In this document: positions 7,231 through 36,671 of the stretch, piece by piece
How positions within the stretch are numbered: the first letter of the stretch is position 1
Layout: each line of letters starts with the position of its first letter
Assembly (NCBI RefSeq): GCF_000826125.2
Contig: NZ_LN651373.1
Span: 1,769,425-1,809,361 of the forward strand
Origin: Bhargavaea cecembensis
Lineage (GTDB): Bacteria > Bacillota > Bacilli > Bacillales_A > Planococcaceae
Reading direction: 5' to 3'
DNA: 39,937 nt
Made by a program: the position numbers and the translations under genes
Notes under the pieces: generated by a model
Databases searched by the model: none
What the model was told of the DNA's origin: nothing
The model's input: only the letters and a program-made list of their open reading frames with translations

Positions 7231-7461
7231 TTTTCGGCTGTTCGATCGATTTGTGATTGTGGGGGGGAGGTTTTTCCGGCTGCTTGCCCGCTGCCGGGGT
7301 TTCACGGCCGCGATAGGCGTTTTCGCGGCCGCATTGACCCTTTTCGCGGCCGCTTTTCCGAAGCGGGGATTTTCGCGGCCGCATTTGGGGGTTTCGCGGC
7401 CGCATTGATCCTTTTCGCGGCTGCTTTTCCGATGAGGGGGTTTTCGCGGCCACTAATCGCC
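7231..7461. repeat. Intergenic tandem array 1 (core GCGGCCGCGAAAA on the minus strand)
   Basis: The gap between hemA and engB holds eight copies of a core read on the plus strand as TTTTCGCGGCCGC. They begin at about 7272, 7299, 7320, 7341, 7370, 7391, 7412 and 7441, with a degenerate copy at 7231. Spacings run 21, 21, 29, 21, 21, 29, so the array is a 71-bp trimer super-repeat. Matching spacers recur in the second trimer: ATTGACCC/ATTGATCC, then TTTTCCGAAG/TTTTCCGATG. The edge copies are degenerate. It does not look coding. The remaining part of the gap (7133-7230) shows nothing I recognise. Confidence 0.85.
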
Positions 7462-16819: not shown

Positions 16820-17281
16820 TTAGCGTGCAGGCGTACCGGCCGGATTGAAGGCAAGGCGGTCGGCTTCCGTCCATGGTGACGGCTTTCCGGTCTTCCGGTT
16901 GATCTTGACGATCGTCCCGCGGCCGGTGAACACGGCATCGCCGTCCCCGTCTGTTGCAAGATAATGCAGGTCAACGGAAGAACCGCCGACTTTCGCGGCT
17001 TTCACATGAAGATGAATCGTCTCATCAAAAAACACTTGTTTCAGATAATCACATTGCAGATCCGCGACAACCGGGATATGTTCCTGGTCAGGATTGAGCC
17101 AGTCATTCACCAGTCCGATGTGCTTGAAAAATTCAATCCGGGCATGCTCGAAATAAGTGAAGTTCACTGTATTGTTCAGATGCCCGTACATATCCGTTTC
17201 AGAAAAACGGACGGTCACCGGCGTGGAAAACCGGAATCCCTCTTTCCATGCATCGAAGTCCTCTATATATTGTACTCTCAT
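16820..17281 (-). CDS. Acyl-CoA thioesterase, 4HBT hot-dog family (YsmA-like)
   Basis: This hot-dog-fold protein of 153 residues starts at ATG 17281 with GGGGGAtAAGG directly upstream. An ATG 33 bp earlier lacks a ribosome site. The catalytic segment is VRFSETDMYGHLNNTVNFTYFEHARIEF, with the D..GH.NN pattern typical of 4-hydroxybenzoyl-CoA thioesterase-like enzymes (about 23-50). It probably hydrolyses acyl-CoA esters, but the substrate is unknown. The gene sits between sdhB and gerE, as in B. subtilis. Confidence 0.9.
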   Translation of the reverse strand: MRVQYIEDFDAWKEGFRFSTPVTVRFSETDMYGHLNNTVNFTYFEHARIEFFKHIGLVNDWLNPDQEHIPVVADLQCDYLKQVFFDETIHLHVKAAKVGGSSVDLHYLATDGDGDAVFTGRGTIVKINRKTGKPSPWTEADRLAFNPAGTPAR

Positions 17282-17323
17282 CCTTATCCCCCATTCCACC
17301 GACTGAACGGTCATTCATTTTCA

Positions 17324-17410: not shown

Positions 17411-17661
17411 CCTTGCAATCGTTGTGCAGGAATGCGGTTTGGATTGAGGATGAGGCAATTTGGAAGATAGGTTTGCAATTAGAATATGGAATTTGCAATT
17501 AGAGGAGCCGATTTGCAATTAGAAGCAGGAATTTGCAATTAGAGGACCGGATTTGCAATTAGAATCACGAATTTGCAATTAGAAGATCCGATTTGCAATT
17601 AGAATCACAAATTTGCAATTACAGGATCCGATTTGCAATTAGAATCAGGAATTTGCAATTA
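17411..17661. repeat. Intergenic tandem array 2, left part (20-bp units, core ATTTGCAATTAGAA)
   Basis: Nine complete 20-bp units run without gaps from 17471 to 17650, and a tenth is cut after 11 bp at 17661. Each is ATTTGCAATTAGA plus a variable tail. The tails alternate between two types, GAATCAGGA-like (units 1, 3, 5, 7, 9) and GAGGATCCG-like (units 2, 4, 6, 8), so the true unit is a 40-bp dimer. Three degenerate units stay in the same 20-bp register back to 17411. The period is not a multiple of three, and no coding frame is kept. The flanking sequence 17333-17410 shows nothing recognisable. Confidence 0.92.
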
Positions 17662-17888
17662 TATAAGTTGAATTATATTCTGTGCATTCATTATCCTGGC
17701 CGATTGGAGTGGAAGGCGGCGACTCCAGTGGGAACAGCGCGAGCTGAAGACCCCGCATGTGCTGTCCAACGCTTCGCTTTTGGACGCAGACGCCAACCTC
17801 CGTATTGGCGCCGGCTGAAGCCGTGCCCACGGAAAGCGTCCGCCTGCAACGGAAATCGACGGAATGAAGTTAATTATCTCAACTTATA
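17662..17888. mobile_element. MITE-like non-coding element with 10-bp terminal inverted repeats and TA duplication
   Basis: The 227-bp element begins TATAAGTTGA (17662-17671), ends TCAACTTATA (17879-17888), and is flanked by TA on both sides (17660-17661 and 17889-17890). It lies inside a unit of array 2. Removing it with one TA rejoins ATTTGCAATTA and GAAACACAG into one exact 20-bp array unit. A TA duplication is typical of IS630/Tc1/mariner-type insertion. There is no transposase frame. The interior is strongly structured: GTCCAA/TTGGAC at 17764-17785, CGCCAA/TTGGCG at 17791-17810, and GGCGG/CCGCC and GTGGG/CCCAC outer pairs. Its body (GGAGTGGAAGGCGG, GAAGACCCCGC, GGAAAGCGTCCGCC) resembles dispersed intergenic repeats I remember from other Bacillales. 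I cannot name the family. Confidence 0.8.
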
Positions 17889-17890
17889 TA

Positions 17891-17958
17891 GAAACACAGT
17901 TTTGCAATTAGAGAACGGATTTACTATTGGTCATACGGATTTGAAGATATTGTGCCGA
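17891..17958. repeat. Intergenic tandem array 2, right part
   Basis: After the inserted element the array resumes with the last 9 bp of the interrupted unit (17891-17899). One good unit follows (TTTTGCAATTAGAGAACGG, 19 bp), then two degenerate units at 17919 and 17939 that keep the 20-bp register. The array ends just before the sdhB terminator. Confidence 0.75.
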
Positions 17959-17964
17959 AAATGC

Positions 17965-18008
17965 AAAAAACCCGTCCGGGCCGGGTATGCCGGCTGCGGG
18001 CGGGTTTT
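17965..18008 (-). terminator. Terminator of sdhCAB
   Basis: AAAACCCG (17967-17974) pairs with CGGGTTTT (18001-18008), extended inward by a GC-rich imperfect stem. Six T follow on the minus strand. It lies 11 nt after the sdhB stop. Confidence 0.8.
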
Positions 18009-18019
18009 GGGCTTTTCGA

Positions 18020-18817
18020 TCAGTCGACCAGGTGGTCACTGCCGAAGAAGTTTTTGAACGAATGGATCGTTGCCGAGCGGTTCATTGCGGCAATCGACGT
18101 TGTGAGCGGAATGCCTTTCGGGCAGGCGACTACACAGTTCTGCGAGTTTCCGCATTCCTGGAGACCGCCGTCCTGAAGGAGCGCATCCAGACGTTCGTCT
18201 TTGTTCATGGCGCCTGTCGGGTGCGTGTTGAACAGGCGGACCTGCGAAATCAGTGCAGGGCCGATGAAGTTGGTCTTGTCGTTGACGTTCGGGCAAGCTT
18301 CGAGGCAGACGCCGCACGTCATGCACTTCGAGAGCTCGTAAGCCCATTGGCGTTTGCGTTCAGGCATGCGCGGACCTTCGCCGAGGTCATACGTGCCGTC
18401 GATCGGAATCCATGCTTTGACCCGCTTGAGCGAGTCGAACATGACTTCCCGGTCAACGATGAGATCACGGACAACAGGGAATGTGCGCATCGGCTCGAGT
18501 TTGACCGGCTGTGAAAGGTTATCGATCAATGCCGTGCAGGCCTGGCGCGGACGGCCGTTGATGACCATCGAGCAGGCACCGCACACTTCCTCGAGACAGT
18601 TCATTTCCCAGTTGATCGGAGTCGTCTTTTTGCCGTCGGTATTGACCGGATTACGCCGGATTTCCATGAGTGCCGAGATGACGTTCATATTCGGGCGGTA
18701 TTCCACCTCGAATGATTCCCAATACGGCTTCGAATCCGGACGGTCCTGACGCTGGATGTCAAAACGGACTGTCTTCTTCGCCGTATTCTTTTCCTGTACG
18801 GCAGTTTGTTCAGCCAT
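18020..18817 (-). CDS. sdhB: Succinate dehydrogenase iron-sulfur subunit
   Basis: SdhB carries electrons from the flavin of SdhA to the haems and menaquinone in SdhC. The 265 residues contain the [2Fe-2S] ligands in CLEEVCGACS with a later RQAC (about 74-93), the [4Fe-4S] motif CMTCGVCLEACP and the [3Fe-4S] motif CGNSQNCVVACP. The start has AAAGGAG upstream. It is the last gene of sdhCAB, 24 nt after sdhA. Confidence 0.97.
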   Translation of the reverse strand: MAEQTAVQEKNTAKKTVRFDIQRQDRPDSKPYWESFEVEYRPNMNVISALMEIRRNPVNTDGKKTTPINWEMNCLEEVCGACSMVINGRPRQACTALIDNLSQPVKLEPMRTFPVVRDLIVDREVMFDSLKRVKAWIPIDGTYDLGEGPRMPERKRQWAYELSKCMTCGVCLEACPNVNDKTNFIGPALISQVRLFNTHPTGAMNKDERLDALLQDGGLQECGNSQNCVVACPKGIPLTTSIAAMNRSATIHSFKNFFGSDHLVD

Positions 18818-36534: not shown

Positions 36535-36543
36535 ATTTGACGC

Positions 36544-36671
36544 GAATAGATAGAAAGCGGACATGAATAGATAGAATGCCTGGACGAATAGATAGAAAGC
36601 TGACTCGGATAGATAGAATGCTGACACGAATAGATAGAAAGCTGACTGAATGCCGACACGAATAGATAGAA
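36544..36671. repeat. Intergenic tandem array 3 (21-bp units, core GAATAGATAGAA)
   Basis: Cores start at 36544, 36565, 36586, 36607 (GGATAGATAGAA), 36628 and 36660. The first four steps are exactly 21 bp. The last is 32 bp because one unit (36648) has lost TAGATAGAA between GAA repeats. The tails alternate strictly between an AGCTGAC type and a TGCTGACAC type, so the super-repeat is a 42-bp dimer. It lies in the convergent gap between rnhC and pheT, directly before the pheT terminator. Confidence 0.92.

Follow-up and report, generated by a model that had tools for sequence, protein, structure and literature searches.

A mobile-element-like segment within a tandem array

The locus examined here raises the question of how a 227-bp segment came to interrupt a tandem-repeat array between two genes of Bhargavaea cecembensis, and what kind of sequence the segment is. 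The window, which is the whole stretch of 39,937 nucleotides that was analysed, contains the following features around it.

17662-17888, + strand: most probably a non-autonomous IS630-type MITE, 227 bp (sequence; borders shared by five genomic copies; ends common to IS630-type elements)
17662-17679, + strand: left terminal inverted repeat, TATAAGTTGAATTATATT, perfect over its first 10 bp
17871-17888, - strand: right terminal inverted repeat, reading TATAAGTTGAGATAATTA on the - strand
17660-17661, no strand: TA target duplication, left; the restored target is TTAG
17889-17890, no strand: TA target duplication, right
17702-17862, + strand: passenger, a dispersed hairpin repeat ("body"; copies free of the ends in the genome and in relatives, covarying stem)
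17750-17820, + strand: tip of the body hairpin, an exchangeable module; limits approximate and set by eye (alignments)
17472-17661, + strand: 20-bp tandem array with core TTTGCAATTAGA, portion to the left of the element (TRF)
17889-17922, + strand: right remainder of the interrupted array (TRF on the rejoined flanks)
16820-17314, - strand: neighbouring ORF of 164 aa, putatively named ysmA in the initial annotation (ORF list)
18020-18817, - strand: neighbouring ORF of 265 aa, putatively named sdhB in the initial annotation (ORF list)
17969-17986, - strand: terminator-like hairpin after the 265-aa ORF, preceding the element on the transcribed strand (consensus scan; 2 found vs 1.1 expected)

Inspection of the sequence confirmed that the segment has inverted ends that are perfect over 10 bp (TATAAGTTGA at 17662-17671 and TCAACTTATA at 17879-17888) and is flanked by TA on each side, as had been claimed initially. 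When the flanks were rejoined with a single TA, they read ...GAATTTGCAATTAGAAACACAGTTTTGCAATTAGA..., with the 20-bp spacing and the core of the array kept, and TRF called a single period-20 array of 11.1 copies that spans the junction. The restored unit has the correct length and core, and its variable half matches no other unit as a copy. The earlier statement that removal of the element gives back an exact unit of the array thus held for length, core and register, but not for the variable half. The element contains no transposase gene; among the listed ORFs of 80 aa or more just one crosses it (17593-18057, +), and this ORF overlaps the array and the flank. Rfam, applied at gathering score to the whole window, returned nothing but a tRNA.

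Both neighbouring genes are kept in seven of seven congeners with a short spacer between them, and by inspection neither the element nor the array is in the ysmA-sdhB spacer of any of the seven. Both are therefore additions in the lineage of the window, or losses elsewhere. The empty site is a reconstruction from the array, which is itself absent in the congeners.

Sister copies share the ends and the flanking TA

We searched the genome of the window (G000; 3.16 Mb, 4 contigs) by BLASTN with the element as query and obtained 16 matches, among which both ends were present at five places.

Window copy: 227 bp
C3:1813162: 227 bp
C2:85349: 225 bp
C3:1893387: 263 bp
C3:960450: 192 bp

All five full copies (192-263 bp) have TA on either side, and their borders coincide; the remaining matches consist of the interior alone (q43-q210), without the ends. 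The initial annotation had named the lack of a second copy, or borders that do not coincide with the inverted repeats and TA, as speaking against a mobile element, and what we found instead was four other full copies with identical borders. The 18-bp pattern TATATAAGTTGARATAAA, at up to 3 mismatches, had 10 matches in the genome vs 2 for the reversed control, and these comprise nine of the ten ends of the five copies and one solo end. Since five copies in one genome show these ends and TA, their recurrence goes beyond chance. Identity of the other copies to the window copy is 78-91% (BLASTN), so the last burst was not recent. The same pattern gave 0-3 matches per strand in the seven congeners vs 1-6 for the reversed control. 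The solo end (TATATAAGTTGAAATGGA at G000:C3:1222514) has no partner end among the nearby pattern matches and is perhaps a relic.

The ends match those of full-length IS630-type elements

Two full elements were found among 43 genomes of the family of Peribacillus cavernae: L203, of 1137 bp, with such ends and a transposase split across two frames, and L207, of 1167 bp, with a 327-aa transposase and one of its two ends degenerate. Pfam, applied to these two, identified DDE_3 (PF13358) in both transposases (E 3e-38 and 7e-35), together with HTH_33 and HTH_32. The transposases in the window's own family were assigned as homologues of that of L207, and such homologues were found in 8 of 121 genomes (E<=1e-20), none of them in the window's genus. 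At 8 of the 30 own-family loci that were fetched, TATAAGTTGA-type ends lie 1138-1140 bp apart (seven in G095, including L227, L233 and L240, and one in G120, L221), and the targets of these eight full elements are CTAG in six, TTAG in one and CTAT in one. The end search saw no ends of this type at the other 22 loci. Other related transposases are paired with different ends, such as the TATATAAGGTGA-type in the elements of G160 and TATGAAACGC in L248.

One end of L227 is the same as one end of the MITE copy L006 over 18 of 18 bases, TATAAGTTGAGATAAATA, and its opposite end continues GAGTTAAAG, the equivalent in L240 being GAATTAAAG. The MITE copies L001, L002 and L006 have one GAGATAA end and one GAATTA/GAAATTAA end. 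The unlike pair in these three copies, which L227 also has, would be expected if they derive from such an element by internal deletion, and the fit is less clear in L003 and L005.

The ends of the segment thus match those of 1.14-kb IS630-type transposase elements, which sit mostly at CTAG, and we conclude with high confidence that it is a non-autonomous MITE derived from an insertion sequence of the IS630 family (Tc1/mariner-like). This agrees with the IS630/Tc1/mariner-type transposition proposed initially, which is supported by the TA, by the sister copies and by the ends held in common with DDE_3 transposase elements. Movement would have relied on an IS630-type transposase acting in trans, from a lost element or another strain, that cuts at the inverted repeats and pastes into TA with a preference for (C/T)TAG; at this locus the target would have been TTAG within one unit of the 20-bp array.

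An IS630-type transposase was not found in the window's own genome (E<=1e-3, and likewise at 1e-20) or in the seven congeners at 1e-20, so present mobility is unsupported. A cognate transposase in the same genome is not needed by definition, and the partner may be lost or may reside in another strain. Full IS630-type elements with such inverted repeats, for which a search had initially been proposed, exist in relatives; none was found in the genome itself. A single DDE_3 match in Peribacillus cavernae (L188) was considered as a partner and rejected, since this fragment is degenerate, abuts the end of a contig and has no matching ends.

The interior is a dispersed hairpin repeat

Copies of the 160-bp interior are dispersed: the element query matches 23 of 41 genomes searched, its own included, and among the matches listed in relatives the extent lies within q37-q210. 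Body copies without these ends are present in the window's genome at L004, L007, L009 and L011, and copies in relatives often end at ...GTTGATT / AATCAAC..., likewise without the ends of the shell. IS630-type MITEs of G120 and G202 also contain partial matches to the body. Its tip differs between copies: L006 has a short one, the window copy a long one and L005 a double one.

These copies bear on the reading that the whole is one ordinary mobile repeat family, in which the TATAAGTTGA ends are the true ends and were lost from decayed copies. The body is present in all five shell copies, and the body-only copy L004 (90% identity over q43-203) is as close to the window copy as the shell copies are, both of which such a family would explain; the frequent stop of copies in relatives at the same two motifs, without the ends, speaks against it, as do the observations in other genomes described below.

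RNAalifold, applied to 20 copies, gave an imperfect hairpin of 25 consensus pairs, 15 of which show double changes; the hairpin covaries. The alignment comprised 20 of the 26 body copies; a different tip length or a weak match led to the exclusion of L005, L025, L029, L033, L034 and L036. Folding of the window copy gave z-scores of -3.4 (+ strand), -5.7 (- strand) and -3.6 (as DNA). Single folds of this copy favour the - strand, and the energies summed over the 26 body copies are close for the two strands (-1709 vs -1659 kcal/mol). The covariation fits RNA and DNA hairpins alike, as DNA palindromes also covary, so the hairpin may act as a structured RNA, as suggested initially, or as DNA.

The strong folding and the double changes would also be expected if the segment were no transposon but a regulatory or structured RNA locus, an attenuator or terminator whose stem had the inverted ends at its base. 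We regard this as very unlikely, since TA stands at both borders in all five copies at unrelated loci, the ends are common to transposase-coding elements, the element is placed after the terminator-like hairpin of the preceding gene, and covariation is also expected of DNA palindromes. Derivation from an IS630-family element accounts for the borders and leaves the hairpin as a passenger, which would multiply with its shell.

The same ends enclose other interiors

An exact scan of contigs for one 18-bp end, which may omit the window's own genome, returned 16 stretches, and only one of them, L147 in Peribacillus cavernae, had a close partner end. Among the others, 14 had no partner within 4 kb in the stretch covered, and in L155 a partner end with 1 mismatch, 3.9 kb away, was taken as chance. 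Peribacillus cavernae carries at least seven distinct TA-flanked elements with such ends (148-267 bp), and the target, read by inspection, is CTAG for five of seven distinct copies. In six of the seven, TRF found an internal 19-21-bp repeat with 1.9 to 9 copies; the interior of L164 is different. The arrays are thus outside the elements in the window's genome and inside them in Peribacillus cavernae, which associates ends and arrays in two distant genera. The six MITEs with a tandem interior of variable copy number are L160, L162, L163, L165, L173 and L179. A 637-bp candidate in Peribacillus (L182) and two further ones with imperfect right ends (L158 and L159) were set aside.

Paired ends were found at 7 of 19 loci examined in the family of Peribacillus cavernae, and further miniature elements of 190-203 bp are present in G083 and G075. 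Among 261 family genomes, 23 had 4 to 32 matches to the end at up to 1 mismatch; the reversed control never gave more than 2. Any match at all was seen in 67 of the 261 genomes vs 33 for the reversed control (manual count), so single matches mean little and only the 23 genomes with at least four were used. Paired ends were present at 23 of 48 further family loci, and 17 of these were analysed further; these 17 elements come from ten of the 23 genomes, measure 112-493 bp and have varied interiors. Six loci with weaker or ambiguous ends were left out (L291, L292, L296, L258, L259 and L271), with L296 used in the comparison of the second element below.

A second mobile shell carries the same hairpin

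In three genomes of another genus (G266, G267 and G268), the same body was found inside a different element of about 190 bp, which has the ends GAGGGCACTGAAAAAGT / GTGAAGCCACTGAAAAAGT and whose copies are among L298-L326. Several copies have target duplications of 6-8 bp, assigned by eye, such as CTTCGGCT in L306, ACACGAAG in L313 and CCTAAT in L325, and some, such as L312, have none. Copies of the second element were seen both in ordinary sequence and within IS630-type MITEs; L296, a MITE lacking it, is contiguous at that place.

The body inside an element with other ends, together with the same ends around unrelated interiors in Peribacillus and other genomes, goes against a single family with lost ends, which we consider very improbable. 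The presence of the body in the IS630 shell and in the second element indicates instead that the hairpin rides at least two different mobile shells, which it would have entered or been picked up by. As the repeat occurs without ends and in another element, the IS630 shell is not the general cause of dispersal but one vehicle among two or more. The initial suggestion that the interior is a dispersed repeat made mobile was therefore right about its dispersal and its carriage by the shell, but not about the shell as the general means of its spread. We tentatively propose that the hairpin may be a cassette taken up repeatedly by unrelated miniature transposons and common to them, with the IS630 shell as a chassis whose interior (hairpins, 20-bp arrays, mosaic pieces) is freely exchanged, a proposal that we hold to be somewhat less probable than its negation. 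If it is true, the hairpin may benefit its carriers, for example by insulation from transcription, or alternatively may itself be mobile, a third unit that moves into transposons.

Comparison with known elements

RUP of Streptococcus pneumoniae duplicates TA as its target, and bcr1 of Bacillus is said to be a mobile element. IS630 and ISY100 (Tc1/mariner) use TA targets and move by cut and paste (PMC2170065), and the MITE is like them in its TA duplication, its DDE_3-type element ends and possibly its CTAG-like target. It is unlike them in having no transposase gene and in that most of its sequence is foreign to the insertion sequence. The closest precedent is RUP with IS630-Spn1, since RUP is short, has no transposase gene, carries IS630-like ends and has a target duplication (PMC3049150); mobilisation in trans, and preferential insertion into or near IS elements, were proposed for it (PMC3049150). 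RUP is a simple AT-rich repeat of 107 bp with 110 copies in one genome (PMC3049150), whereas the MITE here has five copies and encloses a GC-rich hairpin, and its genome yielded no partner. The BOX elements of pneumococcus are similar in their modular interior, the length of which varies with the number of modules, and their ends resemble ISSpn2 and not IS630-Spn1 (PMC3049150). The bcr1 and Bhal stem-loop families of Bacillus are by description also dispersed stem-loop repeats of similar size, but they are families of other species (PMC2267715).

In the literature covered, which mostly excludes subscription papers, neither these MITEs nor the body sequence (searched as literal strings) nor 20-21-bp arrays in these genera were found described. 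What sets the element apart is its chimeric make-up, a widespread hairpin in two shells, and the insertion into repeat arrays. These results place unnamed Bacillales intergenic repeats in a known transposition system, with IS630-type elements of ~1.14 kb as the source of the ends, and provide a clear case of one dispersed hairpin repeat in two different mobile shells.

Target choice and tandem arrays

The restored targets of the five MITE copies are TTAG in three and CTAG in two; a preference of IS630 for CTAG was reportedly described by Tenzen and Ohtsubo in 1991. The flanks of the five copies consist of 20-21-bp units of three sequence families (TTTGCAATTAGA, ACGTTAATTA and AGATACACAACGTT), and the lag-20/21 scores at the rejoined sites are 15, 16, 13, 15 and 18. 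TRF called an array over the rejoined junction in two of the five (L001 and L006), so that the array at the other three rests on the lag score. A 400-kb sample of the genome contained 169 intergenic YTAG sites, 21.3% of which scored at least 13, and the chance that all five rejoined sites reach it is about 4.4e-4, or 2e-3 without the discovery copy (five events, post hoc). On this post hoc count of five events, the preference for arrays exceeds what the target motif and the intergenic position would lead one to expect.

Beyond its preference for (C/T)TAG, the transposon may be targeted to tandem-repeat arrays as such, either by their structure or by a protein bound to them, and we give this reading slightly less than even chances. 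The scores of 13-18 at all five sites point to it, as does the Peribacillus copy L164, which by eye sits at a CTAG adjoining an array remnant. Against it stand the small number of events, a threshold of 13 that was picked after the data were seen, the TRF call across the junction in just two of five copies and a crude ORF mask; survival bias may also contribute, as arrays may be harmless places, and the other six Peribacillus copies have by eye no array in their flanks. Where copies of the IS630-derived MITE interrupt arrays, their borders are exact and the empty site can be reconstructed, so that both transposition by an IS630 transposase in trans and the possible array preference can be tested directly.

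In the window, tandem arrays lie at 17472-17661, 36538-36651 and 7300-7421, and its genome is rich in arrays with a period of 20-22 bp, often with a higher order of 40-42, in many sequence families whose units have a conserved core and a variable remainder. We counted 46 in the 400-kb sample, which corresponds to 115 per Mb and by extrapolation to ~360 per genome; 29 of the 46 are mostly outside ORFs, and none were found at six control periods. Comparison samples of 200 kb held 0 arrays in the congener G003 and 3 in G266. A unit of two helical turns suggests arrays of protein-binding sites. In the body copy L008 (G000:C3:1567356-1567446), the hairpin gives way abruptly to a 20-bp array, CTCCGAATTTTGATCCCATA, which looks as though it had taken the place of the missing part. 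Local duplications of ~0.8-1.1 kb, which involve repeated context or arrays and are possibly assembly artefacts, were also observed in the assembly, at C3:1232346 and 1233408 (L049 and L050), in L128 (4870/5936), in L131 (7236/8103) and in L137 (15450/16292).
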